Of a stretch of 50,284 nt of DNA, positions 9,522 to 27,600 are shown in pieces (position 1 is the stretch's first letter; every line of letters starts with the position of its first letter). This DNA is from Gemmatimonas sp. GTDB lineage: Bacteria > Gemmatimonadota > Gemmatimonadetes > Gemmatimonadales > Gemmatimonadaceae. The notes under the pieces were generated by a model. The model was given only the letters and a program-made list of their open reading frames with translations, searched no databases and had not been told where the DNA came from. The position numbers and the translations under genes were made by a program. Location of the stretch: positions 1-50,284 of the forward strand of contig PNKF01000002.1 of NCBI GenBank assembly GCA_013822285.1. The letters are read 5' to 3'.

Positions 9522-12062
9522 CTAGCGCCGCAAGAGAAGATCCGCCGCCTGCAACGTTTTGCCACGCAGGCGCGGCGGATAGTCCGGATGCTCGTCGAGG
9601 AAGCGCCGGACGGTCGCGGCGGCCTCCGGCGAACGATGGCCATCAAGCACCGCGTTCATCCAGCGCAGCGGGAAGAAGATGTCGCCCGTCTGCTGGATCT
9701 CTTGCACCAAGTCGAGACTCGGGCGCAGCAAGTGCAGCGAAGCATCCGCTCGGAGCGGATGGTTCAGGTAGCCGACGGCATCGAGCACCCAGTTCTCCTG
9801 GCGCCGATTCTTGACATCGGCGAGCGTCGCAAAGAACGCATCGCGACGCGCGGAATCGGCACTCAGCGCCGGCCGCACGAATGCGAACCGCGCCTTGCGA
9901 TCGGCATTGGAGATTCGCGTGGCCTCTTCGTCGAGCATCTGCTCGGCATTCGGCAAGCCGCGCAGCGCGAGGGCTTCCGCCAGCCCCGTGAACTGCTGCT
10001 CCGACAGCGGCAGGCCGTCCGGCGGTGTCCGCGTGCGCCAGATCCGCTCGAGCCGCGCGATGCCCTCCGGCGTCAGCGTCGTAGAGACAAGTGTGCTGAA
10101 GAGCGCACCCTTGCGACCCGGCGTTGGCACGCGCTCGAGCTTCGACCACAGCTTCCGCTCCACGGCCGGTGCCAGCCGCAGCCTCGTGCTGTCATCGAGG
10201 TACGACCAGTACGTGAACCGCAGGAGACCGAGTACTTGCGAGGCCACGAGTTCGTCGCGCTCGGACTCGACGCCCGCCAGCGTCGCCGTGAGCAGCGCTT
10301 CGGGTTCGAGCACGCCCGCAATGAGCTCTTCCTGCAGCGTCTGCCACGCGACCGCCCGGTGCAGCGCCTGGGGCAAGCTGTGGACGCGATCAAGCAGCGT
10401 CATCCGCGAGGCCGAGTCGAGCGAGAATCGTCCGTAACTGACACCGTCGGCGCCGCCGAGCAGGATGCGTGGATTCGAGATGCCGGGTGGAAGCGGCAGG
10501 CGGACATTGCGTCCGGAGTAGTCACCGCGCAGCATCACGACCGCGTTGTCGGTGATGAGGGCGTAGCCGATGCGCTGCGGCCACCGGAGATCGCGCTCGG
10601 GCCAGGTGTCGGATTGGGTGATCGAGAGCACGCCGCTATCCGCCCACGCCGTGAAGGTCGGGCGACCGGGCTCCTCCACCCACACGCGACTCCACGCCGT
10701 CACATCCTTCGGGCTCAGGGAGTCGAGGATCGACACGAGGTCCGGCCAAGCGGCGTTCGCAAAGCGATGCCGATCGAGGTACAGCCGCAGTCCGTCGCGG
10801 AACGTCGAGTCGCCCACCATCGTCTCAAGCTGCTGCATGACGATCGGCGCCTTCTGATAGATGATCGCGCCATAGAGCGAGCCCGCCTCGCGCAGGTTCT
10901 CCAGCGGCTGGCGAATCGGGTTCGCGCCTTGCGTCCGGTCTACGCCGTACGCGGCGGCATGATGCGCTTGGAAGAAGCGCAGGCCTTGGTCCACGTCGGG
11001 GAACGAAGGGCCGACGATCTTCGCGGCCATGAAGTTCGCGAAGACCTCCTTCATCCACACGTCGTTGAACCACTCCATGGTCACGAGGTCGCCGAACCAC
11101 ATGTGGGCCGTCTCGTGCGCGATGAGACTGGCGCGGCCGAGCTCCTGCGAGCGTCCGGCAGATTCGTCGAGGAACAGCGAGCCCGCGCGATACCACACGG
11201 CCCCCGGATGCTCCATGCCACCGAACTGGAACGAGGGCACGGCGAAGAAGTCGAACTTGGAGAAGGGATACGCGATGCCCGTGTACTCCTCGAGCCATGC
11301 CAGCGCCGCGGCGTGCAGGTCGAAGATCGCGGCGCTGTTGCGGCGCACGCGGAGACTGTCCGTTTCGCGGTGGTACATCGTAAAGCGGCGTCCGTTGCGC
11401 TCCGCCGTCTCCTCCTTCAGAACGCCGGCCGCGAACGTCATCAGGTAGGTACTGATTGGCTCAGACTCAGCGAAGCGAAGCACATGTCGGTCGGCGTCAC
11501 TGCTGTCGCGGGCGACCAGCGGCCCGTTGCTGACCGCCTTCCACGCCGCGGGGACCGTGAGCGTGAGCGCGAACCGCGCCTTGAGATCGGGCTGCTCGAA
11601 GACCGGGAACGCGGTGGAAGCGCGATCAGGGACGAAGAGCGCGTACAGGTAGTCCGCGTTGCGGTTCAGCGCCGCATCGGTGCTGCGGAAGCGCAGGCTG
11701 ACGATGTGCGCGCCCGTCTCCAGCAAGCGCGGCCGGATGACGATATGGTCCTCGACGAACTGCGGCTCGATACGTTCGCCGTCGAGCCGCACTTCGTACA
11801 CGTGGTCGGCGGGGGCGCGGAAGTCGAGGACCAGTGGCCGGCGGACCTGCCCAAGGGTGAAGGCGATGTCTACGGCACCCGTGACCGCGGAATCCTTCTC
11901 GGCCGGGATGTCGAAGTGCACGTCGTAGCGGACGTCCGAGATGGATCGCGCGCGGTACTGGGCGAGTTCGAGGGCGACGCCAGGCGTTGGGTCAGCGCCG
12001 AAGCACGCGGCAAGGGCGAGGGGCGCTAGCAAGGCGCGCACGGCACGTCGTGAGGCGGACAT
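9522..12062 (-). CDS. M1-family aminopeptidase lipoprotein
   Basis: An 846-residue protein. The start is set at the ATG at 12062 (MSASRRAV); a longer frame to 12107 adds 15 residues before the signal sequence. The signal ends in the lipobox LALAAC, so the protein is lipid-anchored. It has the M1 order: an N-terminal beta domain, the substrate motif QFGGMEHPGA (GxMEN with His for Asn), the zinc motif HETAHMWFGD with the third ligand 19 residues later in VWMKEVFANF, then helical ERAP-like C-terminal repeats. The GGMEHPG variant is common in bacterial M1 enzymes. It likely trims N-terminal residues from peptides in the periplasm or at the surface. Confidence 0.9.
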   Translation of the reverse strand: MSASRRAVRALLAPLALAACFGADPTPGVALELAQYRARSISDVRYDVHFDIPAEKDSAVTGAVDIAFTLGQVRRPLVLDFRAPADHVYEVRLDGERIEPQFVEDHIVIRPRLLETGAHIVSLRFRSTDAALNRNADYLYALFVPDRASTAFPVFEQPDLKARFALTLTVPAAWKAVSNGPLVARDSSDADRHVLRFAESEPISTYLMTFAAGVLKEETAERNGRRFTMYHRETDSLRVRRNSAAIFDLHAAALAWLEEYTGIAYPFSKFDFFAVPSFQFGGMEHPGAVWYRAGSLFLDESAGRSQELGRASLIAHETAHMWFGDLVTMEWFNDVWMKEVFANFMAAKIVGPSFPDVDQGLRFFQAHHAAAYGVDRTQGANPIRQPLENLREAGSLYGAIIYQKAPIVMQQLETMVGDSTFRDGLRLYLDRHRFANAAWPDLVSILDSLSPKDVTAWSRVWVEEPGRPTFTAWADSGVLSITQSDTWPERDLRWPQRIGYALITDNAVVMLRGDYSGRNVRLPLPPGISNPRILLGGADGVSYGRFSLDSASRMTLLDRVHSLPQALHRAVAWQTLQEELIAGVLEPEALLTATLAGVESERDELVASQVLGLLRFTYWSYLDDSTRLRLAPAVERKLWSKLERVPTPGRKGALFSTLVSTTLTPEGIARLERIWRTRTPPDGLPLSEQQFTGLAEALALRGLPNAEQMLDEEATRISNADRKARFAFVRPALSADSARRDAFFATLADVKNRRQENWVLDAVGYLNHPLRADASLHLLRPSLDLVQEIQQTGDIFFPLRWMNAVLDGHRSPEAAATVRRFLDEHPDYPPRLRGKTLQAADLLLRR

Positions 12063-12175: not shown

Positions 12176-14281
12176 ATGTCGGTCGCACGATCGCCCGAAT
12201 TGGAGTTCGTGACCCGCTTGGCTCGGCGTCAGCCGCCTGCGGAGAGTGTCGCGCGTGCTCGGGTGCTGGCCTCCGCGGGACTCCGCTGGGATCGCGTCGA
12301 GGCGCTGGCCGACCATCACGGCCTCGCCGCGCTCGTGCACAGCACTCTGTCGCAGGTCGCGATCGACCTCCCGCGGGATGTCAGGCGGCGACTGGAAGCA
12401 TCCGCTTTGCAGGTTGCCACCGGCAATCTCGCGAAGTTTGCCCGCTGGAGCGCCCTGTGCTCCGCTTTCGATGCCGCGGGCATCCGTGCGGTGACGATGA
12501 AGGGCTTTCACGTCGTCCACAGCGTCTATCAGGACCTCGGGCTTCGTCCGGTGGGCGACCTCGACTTCCTCGTCGCTCCGGAGGATGTCGAGCGCAGCAT
12601 TCAGCTGCTGCAGGAGCAGGACTACTGGTTGGTCAGGCGTTGGAGCCGTGCGATCGCAAACGTCGGTTGGCGCTACGCGCTGACGCGTGGGCACGAAGTC
12701 CACTTGGGCGCCCCGGATGGTTTGGCCGTTGACCTGCACTGGCACGCCGGCCCCCACGGATTTGCGCTGCCGACGCAAGAACTGTTGCGCTCCGCCGTGC
12801 CGTTCACGGCGCAGGGTGTCCCGGCGCTCGGCGCTGATCTGCCTGATTTGCTCGCCATGCTCGTCGCCCACGGGCACAAGTCGCGGTGGCATCGCTTCCG
12901 CTGGGTTGTCGACGTGGCGGAGGGTTTGCGCCTGCTCGACGCCGACGGTCGCGAACGCATGCGAGTGCATCTGCAACGCCTCGACCTCTTACCCGCGCTG
13001 TCTCTGGTGGAACGCATCATCGCCGAGACCTGGGGCCCGGGCGATGAGGCGTCGCCCGTGTCCGTCGACGGTCGCGATCAGGGCCGTCGTCTTCGCCACA
13101 TTCTTGCGGTGCACGAGCGCGCGAACGATGTCAACCAAACCTTCGATGCGCGGCGTCCACTGCGACTGCTGCGCGAACGTCTCGCCGAACGGGAGTCCCC
13201 GTGGGAGGCGTTGCGCGCCGCGGCCACGCCTTCACATCAGGACTGGGCGGCGCTGCGCCTGCCGCCAGCGCTGCGCTTCGGGTATGCCGCGGTCCGACCC
13301 GTCCGCGTGATCCGGGATGCGCTACGTACGCTCGGACGCGAGCGGGCCACTACGCCGTTCCCCGCGCGGCAGATCACCTTTGTCACGGCGATCTACGACA
13401 ACGGCCCCGACAGCATCGTTGGGGGGCGCGGTCGTGGGCTGGATTTCTTCATCCCGACGCTCCGGGTCTTGTCGAATCTCGGCGCCCCACTCGTCGTTTA
13501 TTGCTCACGCGTCCACGCCGAGCGGGTGACCGCAGCGCTGGCCCCCATGTTTCCTCGTTTGATGGTTCGGCCGTTTGAGCTGTCCGAGTTCGAGTTCTAC
13601 CGTCCCTTTCTGGAGTGGAAGGCAGAGTACCGCGACGAACTGCCGAACAACTTTCGCAACGAGGTGCTCTGCTTCCTCAAGGCGTACTGGCTTCACGCCG
13701 TGAGCCAGGAGCGACCCTGGGAGCATGACCTGACGTTCTGGATCGATGCGGGCCTGTTTCATCACGGCATATTTCCCGAACGGTTTGGGGGCATGGAACT
13801 GCTCAAGCCCGCTGATGCATGGCGCATGTTTCCCAAGTACCCCGACGCGATTGTGAGGCCAGCCCTCTTGGACGGGCTCGTCGCTGCTACGCCACCGGGC
13901 AAGATGTTCTTCTGCGCACTACCGATGCTCGGGAGTGGACCGCACCACGATGGGTATCGTCGGCTCGCTCGAAATGGCGGCGGCACCGGAGCGCTCGTGA
14001 ATCATTTGGTCGGCGGAATTTTCGGGGGCGATTCGGAAAGCATCGACGCCTTTCAACGAGAATTCAGGAATCTCGTGGCCCGTGCGATCACCGAGCGCAT
14101 CTACACGCTCGAGGAACAGCTGTTCAGCGTGATGTACGATCGACATCCGGAGACGTTCGCGGTCCAGCACTTCGGGACCTGGCATTTCTATTCCCCCGGC
14201 GAGCCCTGCAGTTACCTCAGCCAAGAAGGCGACAGCTTCTATAAAGTGTTCGCGCGATTGGCTGGCGTGAGGACTGCCTGA
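12176..14281 (+). CDS. Nucleotidyltransferase (NTP_transf_5) fused to HtrL/YibB-like glycosyltransferase
   Basis: A 701-residue fusion; a TTG three bases upstream is an alternative start. The N-terminal part (about residues 10-340) has the layout of the uncharacterised nucleotidyltransferase family PF14907: AVTMKGFHVV near residue 107, RPVGDLDFLV near 125 with the metal-binding Asp pair, and LAVDLHWHAGP near 186. This family accompanies HprK-like kinases and PqqD proteins in lasso-peptide and related clusters. The C-terminal part (about 400-701) resembles HtrL/YibB/WlaTC glycosyltransferases: ITFVTAIYDNG, LVVYCS, NNFRNEVLCFLKAYW and FWIDAGLF. No signal peptide. The stop overlaps the kinase start by one base, so the two are co-translated. 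The fusion physically links a peptide-modification-associated domain to a sugar transferase. Natural substrates unknown. Confidence 0.75.
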   Translation: MSVARSPELEFVTRLARRQPPAESVARARVLASAGLRWDRVEALADHHGLAALVHSTLSQVAIDLPRDVRRRLEASALQVATGNLAKFARWSALCSAFDAAGIRAVTMKGFHVVHSVYQDLGLRPVGDLDFLVAPEDVERSIQLLQEQDYWLVRRWSRAIANVGWRYALTRGHEVHLGAPDGLAVDLHWHAGPHGFALPTQELLRSAVPFTAQGVPALGADLPDLLAMLVAHGHKSRWHRFRWVVDVAEGLRLLDADGRERMRVHLQRLDLLPALSLVERIIAETWGPGDEASPVSVDGRDQGRRLRHILAVHERANDVNQTFDARRPLRLLRERLAERESPWEALRAAATPSHQDWAALRLPPALRFGYAAVRPVRVIRDALRTLGRERATTPFPARQITFVTAIYDNGPDSIVGGRGRGLDFFIPTLRVLSNLGAPLVVYCSRVHAERVTAALAPMFPRLMVRPFELSEFEFYRPFLEWKAEYRDELPNNFRNEVLCFLKAYWLHAVSQERPWEHDLTFWIDAGLFHHGIFPERFGGMELLKPADAWRMFPKYPDAIVRPALLDGLVAATPPGKMFFCALPMLGSGPHHDGYRRLARNGGGTGALVNHLVGGIFGGDSESIDAFQREFRNLVARAITERIYTLEEQLFSVMYDRHPETFAVQHFGTWHFYSPGEPCSYLSQEGDSFYKVFARLAGVRTA

Positions 14282-15114
14282 TGTCGACCGAAGAGATCAC
14301 GCTTCGTTTCACGAGTTTCGGCGTGACGATGGAACTCGTCTGTCCCGACGCATCGCTGCTGGACAAAGCGATTCCTGCCCTGCCACCACGCTGGACGCCG
14401 GCGGTGGCTGGTGCAGCGCCGGAAGTTCGATTCGAGGTGAGCCAAGGTTCTGCAGGACCTCGACGCCCGCTCACCCTCCGAGTCGATAGCGTCGTCACGG
14501 TGACGAGTCTTCGAATTGCGACGATCGTCGATGCGCTTGAGGCTGCCGTGCGCACCGAGGTGGGCCGACGCGCGCCCGCGCTGTTGTTTGTGCACGCCGG
14601 CGTCGTGGCGGTCGGGAATGTCGGTATTGTCATTCCCGGCCGCAGCGGGAGCGGAAAGACCACCCTCGTTGAAGCGCTCCTGCGCGCCGGTGCAAGCTAC
14701 GGCTCAGACGATTACGCCGTGCTCGATGCCGATGGCATGGTCCATCCGTATCCGAGACGGCTGTCCATCCGAGTGGGAGGCGACCACCGCCTGCGCCGGC
14801 GCGCGGTCGAGGACCTCGGCGCAAGCGAAATACACGGTCCTGTGCCAGTTGGCATCATTGCCGTCACACAATTTGACAGCCACGCGCGCTGGGAGCCGAC
14901 CAAGCTCACGGCTGGTCAGGCTGCGATGGCCCTCCTAGACAATACGCTGGCCGCTCGAGAGCGACCGGTCGACACGCTTACCATCACTGCCCGCGCAGCA
15001 GCGGGGGCCCACATCCTTGCCGGAAGCAGGGGCGAGGCGACAGATTGTGCGCTCCAGCTGATTGCTGCCGCGCGCGCGGCGAGACCTTTTCGCACCGAGT
15101 TCCCAGCCCCATGA
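14281..15114 (+). CDS. HprK-like serine kinase
   Basis: A 277-residue cytoplasmic protein related to the C-terminal kinase domain of HPr kinase/phosphorylase. It has LLFVHAGVVAV (102-112), Walker A PGRSGSGKTT (119-128), and the catalytic acidic pair in YGSDDYAVLD (140-149), followed by the family's PYPRRLSIR. The N-terminal 95 residues replace the HPr-kinase N-domain. Such short kinases occur next to PqqD proteins and PF14907 nucleotidyltransferases, and in paeninodin-type lasso clusters they phosphorylate a precursor serine. NCBI families describe a similar uncharacterised 'HPr-rel-A' kinase-PqqD pair. Both ends overlap neighbouring genes, so the trio is a tight operon. The likely target, the Ser-rich tail of the next gene product, is inferred. 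Confidence 0.82.
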   Translation: MSTEEITLRFTSFGVTMELVCPDASLLDKAIPALPPRWTPAVAGAAPEVRFEVSQGSAGPRRPLTLRVDSVVTVTSLRIATIVDALEAAVRTEVGRRAPALLFVHAGVVAVGNVGIVIPGRSGSGKTTLVEALLRAGASYGSDDYAVLDADGMVHPYPRRLSIRVGGDHRLRRRAVEDLGASEIHGPVPVGIIAVTQFDSHARWEPTKLTAGQAAMALLDNTLAARERPVDTLTITARAAAGAHILAGSRGEATDCALQLIAAARAARPFRTEFPAP

Positions 15115-15764
15115 AGCCTCTTGCCCGCTCCGCAGGTCTCGTCAAGCAGGTCGTCGGCACCGAAACGCTGGTCTACGACACGAACGACGCGGCCGCGCGT
15201 CGCCTCAATGCGTTGTCTTCCACCGTCTGGCGCCACTGCACGGGCAAGAACACCGTCGACGAAATCGCGATGCTCGTCGCCGCGGAAGTCGAGCTTCCCG
15301 CGGGTGCCGATCCGGTCACGGTGACCTGGGGCGCGTTGGAAGAGCTTGAGCAACACGGGCTGCTGCAGGCGACGCCGGAGCAGGCCGCCGGCGGCGCCGG
15401 TGTCGGGCGCCGCGACGTGCTGGTCACGCTGGCTGCACTGCCGATTTTCCCGTCAATCGACCGGATCTTCGCGCCGCGGCTTTCGAACGCGGCCTCGGCG
15501 CCGCCGAGCTCGACGGAGACGTTGACGGCGACTGCGTCCGCCTCGATGACCGCGTCGGCGACGGGCACCGGCGTACCCGCCGCGACTGCCAGCGCAACGG
15601 CTCTGCCCGCGGTGTCGGCCTCCGCGTCGGCGCCCGCCGTCTCGCAGTCCGCCACGGCTACCATGACACCGACGCCGACTCGGACCGCATCTTCGACGCC
15701 GCCAGCTGTTTCGCAGTCCGCTACGCCGGCCGTGACCCCGAGCAACACCCCGACCCGTCCCTAG
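15111..15764 (+). CDS. PqqD-domain protein with RR motif and Ser/Thr/Pro/Ala-rich tail
   Basis: A 217-residue protein; its ATG overlaps the kinase stop (ATGA). Residues 1-88 form a PqqD-like peptide-binding domain (LARSAGLV, LVYDTNDAAARRLNALSSTVW, LEELEQHGLL). Residues 97-127 carry GVGRRDVLVTLAALPIF and then APRLSNAAS: a twin arginine followed by a hydrophobic run and small residues, like an internal Tat signal or membrane anchor. Residues 130-217 are low complexity: 16 Ser, 20 Thr, 13 Pro and 22 Ala of 88, no aromatic, Lys or Asp, and the octamer PAVSQSAT twice (175-182, 198-205). That resembles a mucin-like O-glycosylated stalk. The product looks like a carrier fused to its own modification substrate. 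This is inference; the tail might instead be only a linker. Confidence 0.72.
   Translation: MKPLARSAGLVKQVVGTETLVYDTNDAAARRLNALSSTVWRHCTGKNTVDEIAMLVAAEVELPAGADPVTVTWGALEELEQHGLLQATPEQAAGGAGVGRRDVLVTLAALPIFPSIDRIFAPRLSNAASAPPSSTETLTATASASMTASATGTGVPAATASATALPAVSASASAPAVSQSATATMTPTPTRTASSTPPAVSQSATPAVTPSNTPTRP
15498..15761 (+). repeat. Low-complexity segment encoding the Ser/Thr/Pro/Ala tail
   Basis: This stretch encodes residues 130-217 of the PqqD protein. GCG/TCG/ACG/CCG-type codons dominate. A duplicated octapeptide lies near 15633-15656 and 15702-15725. Ser plus Thr make up 36 of 88 residues. The lack of acidic, aromatic and Lys residues argues for a disordered, modifiable stalk. Confidence 0.6.
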
Positions 15765-15816
15765 TTCGTTGGTCGTTGCTCGGCGGTCAAAGCGTAGTAC
15801 AACTATTGTGAATGTC

Positions 15817-15851
15817 GCGGGTCAGGGCCGCATCGTCGGCCTCTGACCCGC
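15817..15851 (+). terminator. Hairpin between the PqqD gene and the first glycosyltransferase
   Basis: GCGGGTCAG pairs perfectly with CTGACCCGC, and GGCCG pairs with CGGCC inside, around the loop CATCGT. It is followed by GAGTCCGTTTCGCTC, so the U-tract is poor. It may be a weak terminator, a processing site, or a means of lowering expression of the downstream glycosyltransferases relative to the kinase and PqqD genes. Confidence 0.5.
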
Positions 15852-15878
15852 GAGTCCGTTTCGCTCTCTCGCCAGACG

Positions 15879-17156
15879 ATGTCGCAGACAATCTTCGTGC
15901 AGATGGCCGCGTATCGGGATCCCGAGTTGATCCCGACCCTCACTGACGCACTCGACCGCGCGAGCGACCCCCGCCGCCTGCATTTCTGCATCGCCTGGCA
16001 ACACGGGGACGAACTCGACCGTGCCGCATTCGCGCCAATCGAGGCGCGCACGCGCCTGACCATCCTCGACATCCCGTTCGGTGAGAGCCATGGCGCCTGC
16101 TGGGCTCGGCACGCCATCCAACAGCGCTATGACGGGGAGGATTTCACGCTCCAACTCGACTCCCACCATCGCTTCGTCGACGGCTGGGATTCACTCTGCA
16201 TCTCGATGGTCGAGGAACTGCAGGCGGCGGGAGTCCCTAAGCCCCTGTTGACGGCGTACCTGCCGTCGTACGACCCGCAGGACGACCCCGCAGCGCGCCA
16301 GCCCGATCCTTGGCACCTGACCTTCGATCGCTTCATCCCGGAAGGAGCGATCTTCTTCACCCCCGCGGCGATTCCGGGATGGCGCGAACTCCAGGCGCCG
16401 ACGCGCAGCCGGTTCTACTCCGCGCACTTCGCGTTCACCCTCGGGGCCTTTGCTCGCGAGGTGCAGCATAACCCGGAGTTCTACTTCCACGGCGAAGAGA
16501 TCACGATCGCGGCCCGCGCGTACACGCACGGCTACGACCTCTTCCATCCGCACCGCCTCGTCGCCTGGCACGAGTACACGCGTCGTGGTCGCACCAAGCA
16601 TTGGGATGACCACAGCAGCACCTGGGGCCAGCGCAACACGTCGACGCACGTCGCGTGTCGCCGCTTGTTCGGCATGGACGAGTTCATGGACGATTCCTCA
16701 GCCATCGCCGAGGAGCGGACGGGACCATACGGATTCGGAACGCTTCGCAGCTTTGAGGACTACGAGCGCTACTCGGGCATCAGCTTTCGCCGACGCGCCG
16801 TAACCTCGGCAGTCTTGGAGCACCGCGAGCCGACCCCCGCGGACAATCGCCACATCACGTACGAAGAATTCACCGCGTCGACGATTCCACGTTTCAAGCA
16901 TTGCATCGATGTGGGCTACGACCACGTGCCCCTCGACGACTACGATTTCTGGGTGGTCTCGTTCAAGGACGCGGATGGGGAAGAGCTGTTTCGACAGGAC
17001 GCGCAGCCCGACGAGATCGCGCGTATGCGAGAGGACCCCGACCGCTACTGCAAGATCTGGCGCCAGTTCGACACGGACGTACGCCCTCGCACTTGGGTCG
17101 TGTGGCCGCACAGTATCTCGCAGGGATGGTGCGCGCCGGTCGTGGGGCAGCTGTGA
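15879..17156 (+). CDS. GlcNAc-transferase family protein (Skp1 hydroxyproline GlcNAc-transferase-like)
   Basis: A 425-residue protein matching the GlcNAc-transferase family (PF11397). It opens with IFVQMAAYRDPELIPTL; the metal and nucleotide-sugar motif is LQLDSHHRFVDGWD near residues 90-105; the acceptor-side motif is FYFHGEEITIAARAYTHGYD near 200-220. Eukaryotic members attach GlcNAc to hydroxyproline of Skp1, and bacterial members are uncharacterised. No signal peptide, so it acts in the cytoplasm. The stop overlaps the next GTG (GTGA). Its position after a PqqD protein with a Pro/Thr/Ser tail makes that tail a plausible acceptor (inference). A conventional role on surface glycans is the main alternative. 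Confidence 0.8.
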   Translation: MSQTIFVQMAAYRDPELIPTLTDALDRASDPRRLHFCIAWQHGDELDRAAFAPIEARTRLTILDIPFGESHGACWARHAIQQRYDGEDFTLQLDSHHRFVDGWDSLCISMVEELQAAGVPKPLLTAYLPSYDPQDDPAARQPDPWHLTFDRFIPEGAIFFTPAAIPGWRELQAPTRSRFYSAHFAFTLGAFAREVQHNPEFYFHGEEITIAARAYTHGYDLFHPHRLVAWHEYTRRGRTKHWDDHSSTWGQRNTSTHVACRRLFGMDEFMDDSSAIAEERTGPYGFGTLRSFEDYERYSGISFRRRAVTSAVLEHREPTPADNRHITYEEFTASTIPRFKHCIDVGYDHVPLDDYDFWVVSFKDADGEELFRQDAQPDEIARMREDPDRYCKIWRQFDTDVRPRTWVVWPHSISQGWCAPVVGQL

Positions 17157-18895
17157 CGCAGGACCTCACCATCCTCACCGGGATCTGGGATCTCGGGCGC
17201 GACAAGGCCGGCGAAGGGTTCGCGCGCGATTTCGAGCACTATCGCCAGAAGTTCGCCCAGCTGCTGGCGGCGGACGTTCCGATGGTCGTGTTCGGCGACC
17301 CCGACCTCCGCGACTTCGTCGAAGACGCACGCGGAGAACGCCCCACGGACTTTCGGGAGTATCGCGCCGACGACTTCCGCACGCGCTTTCCGTTCTATGA
17401 CCGCGTGCAGGAGATCCGCACGCGACCGGACTGGGCGGCGCAAGCGGAATGGTTGTCGAAGTCGCCGCAGGCGACGCTGCCGCTGTACAACCCGATGGTG
17501 ATGTCGAAGATGTTCCTGCTGCACGACACGTCCATCTGGAATCCGTTCGCGACGTCGCGCTTCGCCTGGATCGACGGCGCAATCACGAATACGGTGCATC
17601 CGGGCTACTTCACGCACGATCGCGTGTTCGATCGGGTCGGGGCGCTGCTCGAGCGCTTCCTGTTCGTGACGTTCCCCTACCGCGACGGACCGGAGATTCA
17701 TGGCTTCCCACGCCCCGCGATGCAGCGATTTGTTGATACGGATCCGCGGTGGGTGTGCCGCGGCGGATTCTTCGGTGGACACAAGGACTGCCTCAGCGAG
17801 GTGAACGGCCACTACTACGGCCTGCTGAGCGCGACCCTTGGCGAAGGGCTGATGGGCACCGAAGAGAGCCTGTTCACGCTCATGGCCATGGAGTCGCCGG
17901 AGCTGTATGACCGCTTCCCGCTCGCCGACGAGCATCATGGCCTCCTCTCGCCGTTCTTTGAGCATGTGAAGGGCTTGCCGCTGCGCACCGCAGGCCGGCG
18001 AGGCAGCGCGATTGGCGCGACGCGTCCGCCACTGGTGGGACCCGAGCACCGACGGGCCCGCCGGAAGGCCTTGGCCCAGCGCATTCCCGACCGATCCATC
18101 GCGGGCTACGTCGTGACCTTCAACGCTCCGGAGCAGCTGGCGTCCGTGCTCGAAAGCTGGTCGCGCGGATTCCGCTTCGACGCGCTCTACGTGCTCGACC
18201 ATAGCACGGACACCGCGGCGCGGACCGCCAACGATGCCGTCATCGAACGCTTCGGTGCCACGCGGCTGATGCATCCGAAGGGCAATGGCGGCATCTCCGG
18301 CGGACGACAGTTCGTGGCCGAGCATTTTGCGGCGAGCGCTCACGACTACTACGTGTTCATCGAGGACGACATGTACCTCAATGACGCATCCGCCCCGGCC
18401 CTTTGCCGCAACGGCTTCCGCAGCACGGCGCCCGATCTCCGTGAATCACTCATTCACATCATGGAGCTCGAGGAGTACGACTTCCTCAAGCTCTCGTTCA
18501 CGGAGTTCTTCGGCGAGAACCGAACGCAGTTCTCCTGGTACAACGTGCCGGCATCCGTGCGCGTCGATGTCTGGCCTGAACAGACGAAGCTCCCGCGCCT
18601 CGGACTGGACCCCGACTCCCCGCCGACGCGCTTCGACACGATCGGGACGGTGCGCAACCTCTCCTACATCACGGGCGAGGTGTACTACAGCAACTGGCCG
18701 CAGATCGTCGGACGACGCGGGAACCAACGGATGTTCCTCGACACGGTGTTCGAGTATCCGTCCGAACACTCGTGGATGTCCCACTTCTTCCAGATGACGC
18801 TTCGCGGTGAACTGCGTCCGGCCGTCTTGCTCGCGTCGCTGATCACGCACGAGCGGTCGCACCACTACGATCCGGAGATTCGGCGGGAGAACTGA
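17153..18895 (+). CDS. Two-domain glycosyltransferase (HtrL/YibB-like plus GT-A type)
   Basis: A 580-residue protein read from the GTG at 17153, which overlaps the previous stop. The N-terminal domain (about 5-280) resembles the HtrL/YibB family: LTILTGIWDLGR, MVVFGD, LPLYNPMVMSKMFLLHD, FAWIDGAITNTVHPGYF, and later GGFFGGHKDC. This is the same family as the C-terminal half of the 12176 gene product. The second domain starts near 316 (IAGYVVTFNAPEQLASVLESW), with a GT-A style metal motif YVFIEDDMYL near 402 and a late SHHYDPE. It therefore has two transferase centres. Cytoplasmic, no signal peptide. It ends the plus-strand cluster and converges on pgl with 13 bases between. Confidence 0.77.
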   Translation: MTQDLTILTGIWDLGRDKAGEGFARDFEHYRQKFAQLLAADVPMVVFGDPDLRDFVEDARGERPTDFREYRADDFRTRFPFYDRVQEIRTRPDWAAQAEWLSKSPQATLPLYNPMVMSKMFLLHDTSIWNPFATSRFAWIDGAITNTVHPGYFTHDRVFDRVGALLERFLFVTFPYRDGPEIHGFPRPAMQRFVDTDPRWVCRGGFFGGHKDCLSEVNGHYYGLLSATLGEGLMGTEESLFTLMAMESPELYDRFPLADEHHGLLSPFFEHVKGLPLRTAGRRGSAIGATRPPLVGPEHRRARRKALAQRIPDRSIAGYVVTFNAPEQLASVLESWSRGFRFDALYVLDHSTDTAARTANDAVIERFGATRLMHPKGNGGISGGRQFVAEHFAASAHDYYVFIEDDMYLNDASAPALCRNGFRSTAPDLRESLIHIMELEEYDFLKLSFTEFFGENRTQFSWYNVPASVRVDVWPEQTKLPRLGLDPDSPPTRFDTIGTVRNLSYITGEVYYSNWPQIVGRRGNQRMFLDTVFEYPSEHSWMSHFFQMTLRGELRPAVLLASLITHERSHHYDPEIRREN

Positions 18896-18908: not shown

Positions 18909-19607
18909 TCAGCGCAGCAGGTGCACAGTGGTCGACGCCGTACGCTGCGCGAGAACCTGACCCACCGGCGCCGACGAGCCCGCGCCCTCCGCCACCGCCC
19001 GCTCCAGCACCGCGCGCTTCGCGTCACCCTCAATGACGACGACGCACCGCCGCGCCGCCGCGATCGCCGGCGCGGTCAGCGTGACCCGATCCACGGGCGC
19101 CTCCGGTGGCAACGGCTCCGGGTGCACGCCGACCGCCCGCACGCCGTCGGCAGGCATGAGCGCGGCCTCGAGATCCGGCCCCGCGAAGATGGACGCCGTG
19201 TGGCCATCCGCACCCATGCCAAGCCACACGAGGTCCAGCGGCCACTCGAGCCGCTGCAGCACGGCGTCCGCGCGTTGCCCGGCCTCATGGCGTGGCGCGA
19301 CGGCACCGACCAGGGGGACCACGCGAGCCCCGCTGCGCCCGAAGATGCGCACCAGCATGCCCGCATTCGACAATGCATCGCTGATCGGCACGATGCGGTC
19401 ATCGCTCGGCAACACCGTCACCGACGACCAGGGTAACGGCAGCGCCGCCAGACGCTCGAGGATCGCGACGGGCGTCTTCCCACCGGACAGGGCGATCGTC
19501 GCCCGCCCACGCGCGGCAATCGCATCCTCGATGCTTCCTCGCACGTCAGCAATCACGCCTTCGACGAAGGCGTCGCGATTGCCGTAGTCATTCCAAGTCA
19601 GCGACAC
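18909..19607 (-). CDS. pgl: 6-phosphogluconolactonase
   Basis: A 232-residue cytoplasmic enzyme of the DevB/Pgl family, which hydrolyses 6-phosphogluconolactone to 6-phosphogluconate. It has ALSGGKTPV near residues 35-43, LPSDDRIVP, and the family signature WLGMGADGHTASIF. The frame is open upstream into the eda gene, so the start is inferred: GTG at 19607 gives the normal length and leaves 34 nt after the eda stop. It is the last gene of the minus-strand operon zwf-edd-glk-eda-pgl and completes the oxidative branch. Confidence 0.87.
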   Translation of the reverse strand: MSLTWNDYGNRDAFVEGVIADVRGSIEDAIAARGRATIALSGGKTPVAILERLAALPLPWSSVTVLPSDDRIVPISDALSNAGMLVRIFGRSGARVVPLVGAVAPRHEAGQRADAVLQRLEWPLDLVWLGMGADGHTASIFAGPDLEAALMPADGVRAVGVHPEPLPPEAPVDRVTLTAPAIAAARRCVVVIEGDAKRAVLERAVAEGAGSSAPVGQVLAQRTASTTVHLLR

Positions 19608-19641
19608 AGAGATCGAAATGGGTAGGTGATGAGATGTCGAA

Positions 19642-20256
19642 CTACGGCCGCAGCGCGACCGCAGCACGCGCCGCGGCAGTGATCGCCGCCATGTCCGGCG
19701 CGCCCTTCGGTACCAGCCAGCTACCGCCGACGCAGAGTACCTGCGGCAGCGCAAACCACGCTGCCGCTCGCTCTGGCGTGATGCCGCCCGTCGGACAGAA
19801 CTGACACTGCGCAAAGGGCCCCAGCAGCGCCTTCAGCGCCGACACGCCGCCACTGGACTCGGCGGGGAAGAACTTGAAATGCGTGAAGCCGAGCTCCAGT
19901 CCGCGCATGATGTCGCCCGCATTCGCAACGCCGGGCAGGAACGGCACCGCGCGCGCCTTCGCCGCAGCGCCGAGTCGCTCGGTGAGCCCCGGCGAGACGA
20001 TGAACTCCGCCCCGGCCTGCAACGCCGCATCGAGTCCCGCGACGTCCACGACCGTGCCGGCGCCGACCACCGCGCCAGGCACACGCTTCATCTCCGCAAT
20101 CGCCTCGAGTGCCGCCGGGGTGCGCAGCGTCACCTCAAGCACCGGCAATCCCCCGGCGACCAGCGCCTCGGCAATCGGCCTCGCGTGCGCGACGTCCTCG
20201 ATCACCAGCACTGGGATCACCGGCGCGCTGCGCATGATGCGCTCAATCGGAATCAT
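19642..20256 (-). CDS. eda: 2-dehydro-3-deoxyphosphogluconate (KDPG) aldolase
   Basis: A 204-residue aldolase that cleaves KDPG to pyruvate and glyceraldehyde 3-phosphate, the last step of the Entner-Doudoroff pathway. The catalytic Glu is in [10 protein letters not shown], the Schiff-base Lys in THFKFFPAE, and the phosphate-site FCPTGGI and CVGGSWLVP motifs follow. The ATG at 20256 is preferred because GGGAG lies 6 nt before it; the longer frame to 20286 would run into glk. It lies 10 bases after the glk stop. Confidence 0.93.
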
Positions 20257-20266
20257 TGGTTCTCCC

Positions 20267-21235
20267 TCACCGATGCTGGCGCGCAAACGCCGACGCGGCG
20301 CCGAGCAGCCCAGGCTGCGGATGCGTGATGACCTTTACCGGAATGTCTGCCATCATGCCCTCGAAGCGTCCCTTCGCGCGGAATCGTTCGGCGAAGCCGG
20401 AGCGCAGCAGCACATCCTTCACGCGGAGGCCGAGCCCGCCGGCAATCACCACCCCGCCGAAGCCACCCTGGGCAAGCGCGATGTCGCCCGCGACGCTGCC
20501 GAGCGAGAGACAGAAGCGATCCACCGCGGCGGCGGCAAGGCTGTCCTCGCCGGTGCTGCCGAGGGTCCACAGCGCCTTGTCGTCGAGCACCTTGATGGCC
20601 CGCCCTTCGATGCCGGCCAGCGTCTCGTAGATCTCGATCAGGCCGGGACCCGAGACGATACGCTCCACCGATACGCGCCGATGCCGGCGACGCAGCCGCG
20701 CGAGAATCGCATCCTCGATGGCATCAAGTGGCGCGAAGTCGATGTGCCCGCCTTCGGTCGGCTGCACGTGATAGTCGCCTGGCAGGCGCAGCAAGTGTGC
20801 GACGCCCAATCCCGTACCCGGCCCGATGATGCTGATGGTCCCCAGCGGCGCCAGCGGACGATTCGGCCCGCAGAGATGCGTGAAGTGCGACTCATCGGCC
20901 TGCGCGACAGCGTGCCCCACGGCCTCGAAGTCGTTGACCAACGTGTACACATCCACGCGCATCTTCTCCGGAATCATCGCGGGCCGGATGATCCAGGGAT
21001 TGTTGGCGAAGCGGATGATGTCGCCGGCGATCGGAGCCGCGAGCGCGATGGCGACCACGCGGGGAAGCGCCCCGCCCTGCGCCGCAGCGAAGGACTCATA
21101 CGCGGTCTGAAACGACGCATGCTCCGCCGTACGCATCGTCGTGGGCTCACCAAGCCGCACGACCCGTCCACCCTCGATCTCCGCCAACGCGAATCGGGCG
21201 TGTGTCCCGCCGATGTCCACCGCGACGATCTGCAT
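20267..21235 (-). CDS. glk: Glucokinase (Glk family)
   Basis: A 322-residue cytoplasmic kinase that converts glucose to glucose 6-phosphate. It has [11 protein letters not shown] at the start (phosphate 1), [23 protein letters not shown] (phosphate 2), [11 protein letters not shown] (catalytic and sugar site) and [12 protein letters not shown]. It lacks the ROK zinc motif CxCGxxGC, so it belongs to the Glk family. Its ATG overlaps the edd stop (TGATG). In context it feeds glucose released by the nearby GH3 enzymes straight into zwf and the ED pathway. Confidence 0.93.
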
Positions 21236-23058
21236 CAGAGGCCCGCCTCCGCGAGCATCGCAGATCCACCGCGCTCCGGCGTGTCCGCCAGCCGTCGCAT
21301 CATCGCGAAGATCTCCCGGCCGACTCCAAACTCGGCCGGCGGCACGGGTGCCGCGGGACGCGCAGCGAACTCGCTGGCGTCAACGAGCACGTCGATCGTG
21401 CCCTTCACGGCGCAGACGCGCAGCACGTCGCCGTCACGCAGCTTGGCCAGCGGACCACCGGCGGCGGCTTCTGGCGTCACGTGGATCGCCGCCGGGACCT
21501 TGCCGGACGCACCGGACATGCGGCCATCCGTCACCAGCGCCACGCGATGTCCCTGGGCCTGCAGCACACCAAGCGACGGCGTGAGCTTGTGCAGCTCCGG
21601 CATCCCGTTCGCGACGGGGCCCTGAAAGCGCACGACGACGACGACATCACGATTCAGCTCGCCGGCCTTGAAGGCCTCGATGACGGCTTCCTGCGTCTCG
21701 AACACGCGACAGGGCGCTTCGATGGTCCATCGCGCTTGCTCGACGGCGCTGGTCTTGAACGTGCCGCGCCCAAGCGAGCCCTGCACCAGTCGCATGCCAC
21801 CATCCGGCTTGAATGCATCGGCGACTCCCCGGAGGATCGCCGCGTCGCCGCTGGTCGCAGGTGCAGCGCGCCAGCTGAGCGAGTCTCCGGCGAGCTGGGG
21901 TTCGCGCGCCCCAGCGCGCAGGCTGCTGCCGTACACCGTGCGAATGTCATCATGCGCCAGTCCGGCATCGACGAGTTCGCGAATCACGAACGGCATGCCG
22001 CCCGCCTCGGCGAACGCGTTCACATCGCCGTCGCCGTTGGGATACACGCGCACGATCAACGGCACCACGGCCGACAGCTCATCGATGTCCTGCCAGTCAA
22101 TCTGGATGCCCGCCGCCCGTGCGATGGCCGGCAGGTGAATGACGTGATTGGTCGAGCCACCCGTCGCCAACAATCCGACGATGCCGTTCACGATGGCCTT
22201 CTCGTCCACGCAGTGGCCCAGCGGACGATAATCGCCTCCATCCCAGCCGATCTGCGCGAGACGCTGGGTCGCGGCGCGGGTCAATGCATCACGCAACGCC
22301 GTGCCTGGGTTCGTGAAGCTCGCGCCAGGCATGTGCAGGCCCATCATCTCCATCAGCATCTGATTGGAGTTCGCCGTGCCGTAGAACGTGCAGGTACCCG
22401 CCGAGTGATAGGAGGCCATCTCCGCCTCCAACAGCTCCGCGCGTCCGATCTTGCCCTCAGCGTACAGCTGTCGAACGCGCTGCTTCTCCTTGTTCGGCAA
22501 TCCAGAGGGCATCGGGCCGGCCGGCACCAGGATCGTGGGCAGGTGCCCGAAGCGCAGTGCACCGATCAAGAGCCCGGGCACGATCTTGTCGCAGATGCCG
22601 AGCATCAGCACGCCTTCGAACATGCCGTGGCTCAAGCCGATCACGGTCGACATCGCGATCGTGTCGCGGCTGAACAGCGACAGCTCCATCGAGCGCTGGC
22701 CCTGCGTCACGCCATCACACATCGCCGGCACGCCAGCCGCCACCTGCGCGGTTGCCCCGACCTCGCGCGCGTAGGCCTTGATGCGCTCCGGGTACTCGCC
22801 GTAGGGCTGATGCGCCGAGAGCATGTCGTTGTAGGCGGTGACGATGCCGATGTTCATCGCGCCGCCATCCCGGATGCGCGCCTTGTCGCCCTCGCTGGCC
22901 GCGCAGCCGTGCGCGAGGTTACCGCAGGACAGCCGCGCGCGCGTCAGCCCGGCCTCGCGCTCCCGCGCGATGAGGTCGAGGTACGCCCGGCGCGTCGTCC
23001 GTGAACGTTCGACGATGCGGCGCGTGACCGCGGCAACCACCGGATGCAGCTCACTCAT
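21235..23058 (-). CDS. edd: 6-phosphogluconate dehydratase
   Basis: A 607-residue member of the IlvD/Edd family that dehydrates 6-phosphogluconate to KDPG using an iron-sulfur cluster. Cluster-ligand cysteines are visible in [27 protein letters not shown] and [31 protein letters not shown] and the length of about 600 residues point to Edd and not dihydroxyacid dehydratase (about 560). The start overlaps the end of zwf by 8 bases, and the stop overlaps the glk start. The operon context confirms the pathway. Confidence 0.94.
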
Positions 23059-24496
23059 GCCAGCTCACTCCGTCCCGTTCGGTAAGGGCGATCGACGCGC
23101 TCGGACCCCAGCTGCCCGCCCCGTAGGGCTTGGGCGTCACGCCAGACTCGGCCCACAGCTTTCGGATGGCATCGATCCACGTCCATTGGGCTTCGACCTC
23201 GTCACGACGGACGAAGAGCGCTTGATCGCCTTCAATAAGATCGAGCAAGAGCCGCTCGTACGCGATGCGACGACGCGTCCCGGCGAACGCCGCCGTCAGC
23301 GAAAGGTCCAGTGGCACCTGTCGCAGCCGCAGCCCGCCGCGGTCGAGACCAGGCTCCTTCGCCATCACCATCAGGCGCACGTACTCTTCCGGCTGGAGGC
23401 GGATGATCAAGCTATTGGCCTGCAGCTGCCCGCCCCGCTCGCGGAAAATGTCGTGCGGTACGGGCTTGAACTGCACGACGATCTCGCTGCGGCGCTCCGC
23501 GAGCCGCTTGCCAGTGCGCAGGTAGAACGGCACGCCCTTCCAGCGCCAGTTATCCACGTGCGCCTTGATGGCGACGAACGTCTCCGTGCTCGACGCGTGT
23601 CCGCAATCATCCCGATAGCTCGCCACCGGTGCACCGGCGATGGCGCCGACGCCATACTGCCCCGTCACCACGTCCCCGGCGGCGACCGGCCGGAGCGCGC
23701 GCAGCACCTTCACCTTCTCGTCGCGAATCGCCGTCGCGCCGCGATTGGCCGGCGGTTCCATCGCCGTCAGGGCCAACAACTGCAGCATGTGGTTCTGCAC
23801 CATGTCGCGCAGCGCGCCCGTCTCGTCATAGAATCCGGCGCGGCCCTCAAGACCCACGGTCTCGCTGACCGTGATCTGCACGTGGGCGATGTTGTTGGCG
23901 TTCCACAGCGGCTCGAAGAGCGCATTGCCGAAGCGCAGCGCCATCAGGTTCTGCACCGTCTCCTTGCCGAGGTAGTGATCGATGCGGAAGGTGCGCGGCT
24001 CGGGGAAGACGGCGTTCACGGCGTCGTTGATCGATCGGCTACTGGCCAAGTCGTTGCCGAGTGGCTTCTCGAGACCGATGCGGACCTGTTCGCCGGCGAG
24101 TCCGGCGGCGCGCAGGCCGGCGATGGTCGGCTCGAAGAGCTGGGGCGCGGTCGAAAGGAAGATCGCGAGCCCACCCGAGACGTCCCCGATTGTCTCGGCC
24201 AAGGCGGCGAAGGCCTCCGGCCGAGTGGCGTCGAGCGGCTGGTACCGCAGGCGCTTGAGGAAGCTTGTCACGTTCGCCTCCTCCTGGCGGTCGGCGGCGC
24301 CGAACTCCCGCAGCGACTCCCGGGCAAAGGTCCGGAAGCTCTCGTCCGAGTGCTCGGACCGGGCCGTCCCGACGATGCGCAGGCCGGGGGCGATCAGCCC
24401 GTCCGCGTGCAGCGCATACAATGAAGGGAGCAGCATCCGCCGGGCGAGGTCCCCAGTGGCGCCAAAGAGCAACAGGGTCTGGCTCGGCAGGCTCAT
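23051..24496 (-). CDS. zwf: Glucose-6-phosphate 1-dehydrogenase
   Basis: A 481-residue enzyme that oxidises glucose 6-phosphate to 6-phosphogluconolactone with NAD(P). It has the dinucleotide-binding [14 protein letters not shown], the EKPLGND substrate motif, the active-site motif [13 protein letters not shown] with its catalytic His, and YLRTGKRL. The ATG at 24496 is supported by AAGGA about 8 nt upstream; the open frame to 24769 overlaps the divergent gene and is not used. It is the first gene of the ED operon. Its upstream region holds the palindrome at 24533-24557, so it may share control with the beta-glucan genes. Confidence 0.94.
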
Positions 24497-24508
24497 CGGT
24501 GCGAATCC

Positions 24509-24540
24509 TTGACAGTCATGTCCCCAAACCCCACTTTGTT
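24509..24540 (+). promoter_or_regulatory. Sigma-70-like promoter of the glycosidase operon
   Basis: A perfect TTGACA (24509-24514) is followed 17-18 nt later by the start of a palindrome (CACTTTG...). The -10 is weak (CACTTT or nearby), as in an operator-overlapped promoter. The same TTGACA-spacer-ACTTTGTT arrangement occurs on the minus strand at 36841-36890. Confidence 0.5.
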
Positions 24541-24557
24541 TGGTGTCCGAACAAAGT
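24533..24557. promoter_or_regulatory. Palindromic operator 1, candidate ROK repressor site
   Basis: ACTTTGTTTGG, three bases, then CCGAACAAAGT: 11-bp arms with one mismatch. It lies between divergent zwf and the barrel-fused glycosidase gene, just downstream of TTGACA. It matches the site at 36841-36863 almost base for base. The AT-rich arms stand out from the GC-rich surroundings and resemble ROK-family (XylR/NagC-type) operators in layout. Confidence 0.7.
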
Positions 24558-24605
24558 AGTCTAACGCTTTCCCGCTGTCTCTGCCACGCCCCGCGTGGAG
24601 GCCCC

Positions 24606-27600
24606 ATGGGATCCGTCGTTCGCGCCGCTCTGATTGCCCTCACTCTCACGGCGCTCGCCCCCGCCCCTGCCGCCGCCCAGGCCGGATTGCCCGTTGTCCG
24701 AATCGCCAAGGACAGCAGCGGCCAGCGGCTCCAGGTCGATGGCCGCGACGTCTTCGTCCGCGGCGTCAACTGGGACTACTTCCCGATCGGGACGAACTAC
24801 GCGTTCTCGCTCTGGACCCAGCCCGACGACATCATCGTCGAGGCCCTCGACCGTGAAATGGGCCTCCTCCGGGTCATGGGCGTCAATGCCATCCGCGTCT
24901 ACAACGGTATCCCGGCCCGCTGGGTCCGCTACATCTATGAAAAGCACGGCATCTGGACGGTGCTCAATCACCCGCTCGGCCGCTACGGCCTCACGGTGGA
25001 TGGTAGCTGGATGCCGCAGACGGATTACTCCTCCCCTCGCGTCCGCCAACTGATCCTCGACGAAGTCGCCGCGACGGTGGCTGAGTATCGCGACACGCCA
25101 GGCATTCTCTTCTGGCTGCTGGGCAACGAGAACAACTATGGCTTGGAGTGGAAGTCGGCCGCGACCGAGAACCTGCCGGCCGGCGAACGTCAGGCGGCGA
25201 AGGCCCGCTTCCTCTACTCCCTGTTCGGTGAGGCCGTCGCCCGCATCAAGGCCGTAGACCCGCGCCCAGTCGCCATGGCCAACGGCGACCTCCAGTACCT
25301 CGACATCATCGCGCAGGAAGTGAAGGGCCTCGACATCTTCGGCTCGAACGTCTATCGCGGTGCCTCCTTCCGCGACTTCTTCACCCGCGTGCGCGAGACG
25401 CTGAACATCCCCGTGGTGTTCACCGAGTTCGGCGCCGACGCCTGGAACGCCAAGGACGAGCGCGAGGACCAGACGACGCAGGCCACCGTCGTCCTCAAGC
25501 AGTGGGAAGAGATCTACGCGAACGCCTCCGGCAAGGGACTGGCCGGCAATGCGATCGGTGGCCTGACCTTCCAATGGAGCGACGGCTGGTGGAAGTACGG
25601 GCAGGAGACCGGCCTCGACGTGCACGACATCAATGCCTCGTGGGCGAATGATGCGTATCCGGCCGACTTCGTCCGCGGCCAGAACAACATGAACGAAGAG
25701 TGGTGGGGCATCATGGCGAAGGGCCCCACGAACACGCGCTTCCAGTTCGAGCTCTACCCCCGCGCGGTCTTCTATGGATTGCAGCAGGCCTACCAGCTGG
25801 ATCCCTACGCCAGCGACGTCGACCGCAGCCGCATCGCGGCGCACTTCGCGCGCATCAACGTCTCCGAACTCGCGATGCGCGCCCGCGCCGATGGTGCCGC
25901 GATGGGCGGCGGAGACGTCGGCAAGGTGAGCCTGCGCGGCATGCGTATGGAGCTCTCGACCTTCCAGACCGGCGGCGACCGCATCTCGACGCCGCGTGAC
26001 GGCGGCGCCGTCTCGACGACCTACCCGGCATTCAAGGGCTTCGATCGCATGGAGTCCTTCTACGCCGAGGTCGAGGCGCGTCCGACCGAACGTCTGCGCG
26101 CCCGCATGTCGTTCAATGTGCTCGGCTCGGTGGCCGAGAATCCGATCGACGAGATCTTCTATGAGAATCGCGGTCGCGCGCGCGTGGTCAACACGAGCAC
26201 CGGCGGCCAGCTCACGACGGACGTCGAGCGTCTCCGCGTGTACCAGGCGAGCGTGACCTGGGACGACCCGAACTTCCGACTCGACGCCTTCCACCGCACC
26301 GGGCACTACCACTGGGGCTACGAGGGCGACTTCTTCGGCATCTATCGCGAAGCGAACTACGGCCGCAACATCGACATCTACAACGGTGAAGCGCCGATCG
26401 GCGTCGAGTTCACCGGCAAGCGCGGCTTTGACGGCCTGAAGATCGCCCTCGGTCCGGAACTCTGGTGGGGCGCGAACCCGGCGGCGTTGATCAAGTACCG
26501 CCGCAACGTGTTCGGCATCACGATGACTGGTCTCTTCCAAGAAGACATCGCCCGCAACAACCCCGCCGCGGCGCAGAGCTCGTTTGCGATTCCGGTGCCG
26601 CAGGCGCGCCGTGCCACGCTCCACGCGCAGACGACGGTTGGTCCGTTCGGCGTCGAGCTCGGCGGCATGTGGTCCGGCGGCTCGCGCATGGGCCAAACCT
26701 TCCAGTACGTGGAAGGCACGTCGGGCGCGTACACGGTCTACGAGGACGAGATCAGCGGCATGGACGCGCTGGGCGCGAAGGCGAAGGTGACCTTCAGCCG
26801 CGGTCGCCTCAACTGGTATGCGCAGGCCGCGCAGATGGGCCTCATCGCGGACGGCGGTCCGACCAGCGTGCAGACGTTTACCGGTTGGTGGTTGAAGGAC
26901 ACGGGTCTCAACAACCAGTGGAACGTCGTCTCCGGCTTCACGTGGACGCAGGGTAATCTGCAGATCGCGCCGAACTTCCTGTATCAGGCACCGATCATCG
27001 GCCCGATTCCGGCCGACGCACCGGCGCCGGCCCGCAAGCGCAACGTGATCGACGATCCCTTCGCGGTGCGCGCCAACCGCGAAACGCTCGGTGGCGAACT
27101 GCTGCTCACCTGGGACCCGACGCCAGCGACCTGGATGTACCAGTGGGACAATGACATGCGCGAGGACGCGAACTTCGCGGCGAGCGTCGGCTACGTGTTC
27201 CGTCACATGCCCACCACGCAGGACGCCGCCATCGGCATCCTCGGCGATGGTCGCACCACCTTCGCCTTCCCGGGCGCCACGCCGGCGCGCGACCTGTGGG
27301 AGACACGCGCACGCGTGGTCACGCGCCTTGGCGAACAGACGCGCGCGATCGTGAACGCCTACGTCGGCACGGCCGAGCCCAACGGCGACAGCCAGCGTCT
27401 GGTGAGCCGCTCGGGAGTGGACCTCCGCCTCGTGCATCGCCAGATGAAGGTCGTCGGCGCCGCGAAGATCAACGACTTCGGGCCTTTCGACTATCACCGC
27501 GACTTCAACCTGACCTTCCCGCGGCAGTACATGCTCGACCTCTCGTACGCCGTCGCGCGTCCGCAGTGGTGGGATGTGCCGGAGAGCAAGTTCGGCGTGC

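Follow-up and report, generated by a model that had tools for sequence, protein, structure and literature searches.

A candidate phosphorylated and glycosylated RiPP-like system from Gemmatimonadota with its recognition domain fused to the putative substrate

The five-gene cassette described here, from an uncultured Gemmatimonadota bacterium, tips the balance of evidence modestly towards a RiPP-like system that joins recognition domain and substrate in a single protein, the substrate part of which would be phosphorylated, glycosylated and exported through the Tat pathway; all of the chemistry, as well as export and cleavage, is inferred. The cassette occupies one strand (positions 12176-18895) of the stretch of 50,284 nucleotides that was analysed, hereafter the window, and all five of its open reading frames were confirmed (Table 1).

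Table 1. Positions of the cassette genes and of features within them, numbered along the window.
Feature	Position	Strand	Evidence or remarks
Gene 1: PF14907 nucleotidyltransferase (NTF) fused to HtrL/YibB-like domain	12176..14281	+	Pfam E 7.4e-38 and 2.1e-5
Gene 2: HprK-like kinase	14281..15114	+	TIGR04352 49 bits, far under cut-off 200
Gene 3: putative precursor; PqqD/RRE domain (~1-90), Tat-like signal (~98-128), mucin-like tail (~129-217)	15111..15764	+	
Tat-like signal GRRDVLVTLAALPIFPSIDRIFAPRLSNAA	15405..15494	+	
Ser129, predicted kinase site	15495..15497	+	Ser/Thr in 22/23 family members
Ser/Thr/Pro/Ala tail, predicted core peptide and glycosylation acceptor	15498..15761	+	88 residues, 41% S/T, 56% S/T/P, no Cys
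RNA hairpin in precursor/enzyme gene gap	15815..15853	+	
Gene 4: GT60-family (PF11397) glycosyltransferase	15879..17156	+	E 2.6e-70; 238 bits vs curated cut-off 21
Gene 5: YibB-like domain (1-280) fused to unassigned domain (~316-579)	17153..18895	+	HtrL_YibB by Pfam; IEDDM motif in second domain

A preliminary description of this region had named five same-strand genes with these domains, which is borne out by the reading frames and by Pfam/NCBIfam, and four joints that overlap or nearly do so, which is only partly correct. Overlaps are seen at three of these joints and measure 1, 4 and 4 nt (the kinase frame begins on the final base of the gene 1 stop codon, and gene 5 has a GTG start overlapping the stop of the GT60 gene), but the PqqD-GT60 joint is a 114-nt gap that contains a strong, long hairpin. 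A hairpin in this gap is strong in three of the four cassettes known (the window; L063 from genome G004, 10084-10198; L064 from genome G025, 9825-9893; z -2.9 to -4.1), while the corresponding gap at locus L068 measures only 12 nt, so that no hairpin is possible there. An exact-pattern search did not reveal the hairpin as a genome-wide repeat, and it may perhaps set the ratio of precursor to enzyme. A sigma-70 promoter scan gave no match.

According to Pfam, both flanks of the cassette are housekeeping genes on the opposite strand, with an M1 peptidase gene upstream and 6-phosphogluconolactonase and other Entner-Doudoroff genes downstream; the latter form a run (18909-24769) of 6-phosphogluconolactonase, KDPG aldolase, glucokinase, phosphogluconate dehydratase and G6PDH. 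No polysaccharide genes were seen adjoining the cassette in the window, and neither an SpI-like leader peptidase nor an MsbA-like/ABC exporter was found among the five genes or in the scanned flanks, distant reading frames of the window having been scanned only in part. Inspection of the cassette and of the surroundings of its homologues likewise revealed no separate precursor gene. The draft genome comprises 402 contigs and is 72% complete.

It is the PqqD-like protein itself, including a hypervariable C-terminal peptide, that is probably the precursor, an inference drawn from sequence alone. The PqqD model PF05402 scores marginally under its cut-off in the window protein (23.2 versus 23.4 bits) and exceeds it in six of seven scanned relatives. 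Alignment with relatives establishes a common domain order in which the PqqD domain is followed by a twin arginine, a short hydrophobic stretch, an A-P that is usually kept, an A-x-A-like site and a tail without fixed sequence. Twin arginine, hydrophobic stretch and A-x-A in this order can be read as a Tat-like signal lying within the chain. Tat-signal models find this position in three relatives, though never above cut-off, and not in the window protein, whose hydrophobic stretch is short; TatC was found in all eight genomes tested. A column just behind A-x-A holds Ser in 19 of the 23 members aligned, Thr in three and Pro in one (where a Ser lies one place off), whereas Ser or Thr occupies the flanking columns in only 1/23 and 3/23 members. 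This Ser/Thr is the sole near-invariant residue of the exported part among the 23 Gemmatimonadota relatives. Both the Tat-like signal between PqqD domain and tail and this residue had been overlooked in the preliminary description.

Since the same order of genes is found in three further genomes, with the NTF gene missing in one, the cassette cannot be ascribed to chance. The close genome G004 has all five genes together again, its NTF having another N-terminal domain; REEB316 (L068, whose position matches G419) has the full set including the NTF-YibB fusion; and RYN_358 (G025) has four of the five, with no NTF adjoining. Identities to the window proteins amount to 63–67% for GT60, 56–66% for the gene 5 protein, about 40–44% for the kinase and 43–45% for NTF, and the neighbours of the cassette differ among all four genomes (judged by eye, and by Pfam for the window flanks). 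Within the taxonomic family, 4 of 179 genomes carry GT60, as do 3 of 395 genomes sampled across the phylum, each time within the cassette. The architecture of PqqD domain, twin arginine, hydrophobic stretch, A-x-A and tail is more widespread, with 23 members among Gemmatimonadota relatives (other phyla were outside the survey), nearly all of which adjoin an HprK-like kinase and most of which also adjoin a PF14907 NTF; at two precursor loci (L116 and L120) there is no kinase within the stretch examined. The glycosyltransferases are a local addition to a wider core of kinase and PqqD-tail protein, with or without NTF, and it was not recognized earlier that this core extends to a larger family in which the tails are rich in Cys or QN. 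Two checks proposed at that stage, co-occurrence in related genomes and variation restricted to the tail, have come out in favour, the variation being concentrated in the tail.

The tails of the 23 members are Cys-rich (most with 6–10 Cys), QN-rich or Ser/Thr/Pro-rich, and strongly Ser/Thr/Pro-rich tails are present only where there is a GT60 gene. The Ser/Thr/Pro fraction ranges from 0.52 to 0.69 in the four GT60-linked tails and from 0.06 to 0.50 in the 19 others (nominal p 1.1e-4), the highest of the latter belonging to a tail of 8 residues. Because the four precursors form a single clade (support 100/98), the p value is only nominal and the link represents a single origin that persisted through divergence, not four. 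The GT60-linked tails contain no Cys and are alike in composition, not in sequence or length; that of G025 has merely 14 residues, three of them Ser or Thr. In the window, the Ser/Thr/Pro richness of the tail exceeds that of its other reading frames. The earlier proposal that the tail of the PqqD protein is the substrate, modified in the cytoplasm and then exported, is supported by comparative evidence only, modification and destination remaining inferences. A distant GT60 gene of Chitinophaga oryziterrae (L071, 3224-11293) closes a classical RiPP cluster with a precursor, two radical-SAM maturases and a C39 exporter, the precursor being 71 residues long with a GG-leader and a core enriched in Ser, Thr, Asn and Cys. 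This cluster lends independent support.

The catalytic motifs of kinase and NTF are intact, with H105, the Walker A sequence GRSGSGKTT and SDD retained in the former and D128, D130 and D186 in the latter; their activity is inferred. In the gene 1 protein, NTF spans about residues 37–285 and the HtrL/YibB-like domain about 391–701, and the entire fusion is found again at L068. The NTF of G004 (L063, 11541-13790) has a different N-terminal domain of about 350 residues, to which no family could be assigned, instead of the C-terminal YibB-like domain of the window and L068. The QLDSHHRF-type motif of GT60 is retained in all relatives. Gene 5 had been described as a double glycosyltransferase; its first domain is YibB-like, but the final ~260 residues have no match in Pfam or NCBIfam. 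The label for this last domain therefore rests solely on an EDD-type motif, on which basis it is probably another glycosyltransferase. The YibB-like domains of genes 1 and 5 are distantly related (22% mutual identity). A simple hydropathy scan gave no evidence of a signal peptide or membrane segment in the cassette enzymes, and glycosylation would therefore be cytoplasmic, before export. Glycosyltransferase chemistry and donors are not assignable from AlphaFold2 models of the gene 1 protein (mean pLDDT 41, alignment of 2 rows) and the gene 5 protein (mean pLDDT 37, 3 rows), and PDB sequence searches with NTF, GT60 and the gene 5 protein retrieved no credible relative.

Taken together, we propose that the N-terminal PqqD/RRE domain would remain in the cytoplasm and recruit the enzymes, that the HprK-like kinase would phosphorylate the near-invariant Ser next to A-x-A, and that the PF14907 enzyme would attach a sugar or nucleotide onto the Ser phosphate, as in pseudomycoidin. 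Ser/Thr residues in the tail would receive their first O-linked sugar from the GT60 enzyme, and the YibB-like and EDD-motif domains would lengthen the chains. The finished peptide would exit via the Tat pathway, which, unlike Sec, can transport cargo that is already folded or modified. Cleavage at A-x-A by a general signal peptidase would then release a phospho-glycopeptide. Each chemical step, the order of the steps, donors, substrate, export, cleavage and a role of the peptide at the surface or in competition are inferred from sequence alone.

The closest known system in logic is that of the linear polyphosphorylated peptides (LPP) of Bacillota, reported in 2026. Their HprK-like kinase targets Ser3 of the core, which adjoins the position where a signal-peptidase-like enzyme cleaves (PMC13381572), and the cassette probably resembles LPP up to the kinase step. 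Both share an RRE (marginally under the cut-off of its model in the window protein), an HprK-like kinase, an NTP transferase and a variable core, and lack a lasso cyclase (PMC13381572); the LPP combination of HprK-like kinase and PF14907-type NTP transferase is present in the cassette, except that G025 is without a neighbouring NTF. Moreover, the LPP target Ser adjoins a signal-peptidase-type site, and the near-invariant Ser/Thr is in the matching place, its phosphorylation being inferred. However, in LPP clusters the precursor, which bears a YxxP leader motif, and the discrete RRE are encoded separately, whereas here a single chain with a Tat-like signal comprises both. LPP clusters also contain a dedicated SpI of archaeal type as well as an MsbA-like exporter; the cassette has neither of these, and in turn adds GT60 and YibB-like transferases. 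As neither the discrete RRE and YxxP precursor nor the SpI and MsbA-like genes are matched, we do not class the cassette as LPP.

An HprK-like kinase and a nucleotidyltransferase acting on a peptide Ser are also features of paeninodin-type phosphorylated lasso peptides and of pseudomycoidin; in the latter, the nucleotidyltransferase links hexoses to the phosphate on a Ser residue (PMC8498205). The proposed site here is instead the start of the exported part and not a C-terminal Ser, and lasso-peptide membership was rejected, as no macrolactam cyclase or B2 protease is found in the cassette or scanned flanks. The GT60 family includes the polypeptide alpha-GlcNAc-transferases Skp1 Gnt1 and a Trypanosoma cruzi enzyme (PMC6939170), with which the gene 4 protein shares its PF11397 domain; GlcNAc transfer to a polypeptide is here inferred. 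The cassette enzyme differs in being bacterial, without an evident signal peptide or membrane segment, and linked to a RiPP-like precursor, and Ser/Thr is a likelier acceptor than hydroxyproline since the cassette encodes no prolyl hydroxylase. The pairing of kinase and PqqD protein further recalls HPr-rel-A (TIGR04352/TIGR04353), membership in which was rejected because the kinase falls far short of its cut-off and TIGR04353 misses the window protein and stays under cut-off in all scanned relatives. All in all, we lean slightly to regarding the system as a variant of phosphorylated and glycosylated RiPPs in an arrangement that we did not find described, with all chemistry inferred.

It is possible that the product is indeed a phosphorylated RiPP whose sugars are built, started by NTF, on the near-invariant Ser phosphate, the tail being a mere spacer. 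The attachment of hexoses to Ser phosphate by the pseudomycoidin enzyme (PMC8498205) and the fusion of NTF to a YibB-like domain in the window and L068 speak for this view; against it, G025 carries both glycosyltransferase genes without an adjoining NTF, and Ser/Thr/Pro composition tracks GT60, the known enzymes of this family having polypeptide acceptors. We consider it unlikely that the PqqD protein acts as a conventional recognition chaperone, serving a precursor whose gene lies elsewhere, with the tail as a disordered linker or membrane anchor. PqqD proteins elsewhere do work in trans, and a precursor could be missing because the draft is incomplete; yet no separate precursor was noticed next to the homologous cassettes, and the tails are hypervariable, often Cys-patterned, and follow A-x-A and a near-invariant Ser/Thr. 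Least plausible is a role of the transferases in decorating a cell-surface polysaccharide, with the kinase/PqqD pair as a chance neighbour. YibB/HtrL genes do lie near LPS genes in enterobacteria, but the constant order, the mostly overlapping starts, the recurrence in four genomes with different neighbours and the lack of adjoining polysaccharide genes in the window make this very improbable.

Returning to the reading of the tail as substrate, a bolder version, which is slightly likelier to prove wrong than right, is that of a new RiPP class of self-carrying precursors that combine an RRE with a Tat signal and a core in a single polypeptide, are phosphorylated and mucin-type glycosylated in the cytoplasm, are exported by the general Tat/signal-peptidase machinery, and comprise several unrelated core types across Gemmatimonadota. 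In the open-access literature searched (most subscription journals were outside), neither an RRE fused to a precursor nor RiPPs with Tat signals were found described. If true, a RiPP precursor can bear its own recognition domain, with Tat replacing a dedicated protease and ABC exporter; such systems would look like lone ‘PqqD family proteins’, and searches for small precursor genes would miss them. It would furthermore imply mucin-like O-glycosylation by a GT60 enzyme in bacteria, and allow exact site prediction for these HprK-like kinases.

Several further loci deserve mention. Tat-signal PqqD proteins ending in peptides with 6–10 Cys are encoded at L111-L116 and L121-L123, beside a kinase at most and an NTF at many of these loci, and their tails might be disulfide-rich or modified peptides. 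By eye, the cassette or precursor lies between an rpoC-like gene and rpsL/rpsG/fusA at L114 and L116, and adjoins rpsG and fusA at L115, these being str-operon genes. The signal/tail region at L065 (9824-10354) matches TIGR04117 (Cys-Xaa-Xaa-Xaa repeat radical SAM target) with an E value of 1e-5, under cut-off. Finally, a Sphingomonas MAG (L069, 6385-14050) has two GT60 copies; the large protein encoded next to them contains a glycoside-hydrolase-like domain and gives a weak match of the baseplate-assembly type.
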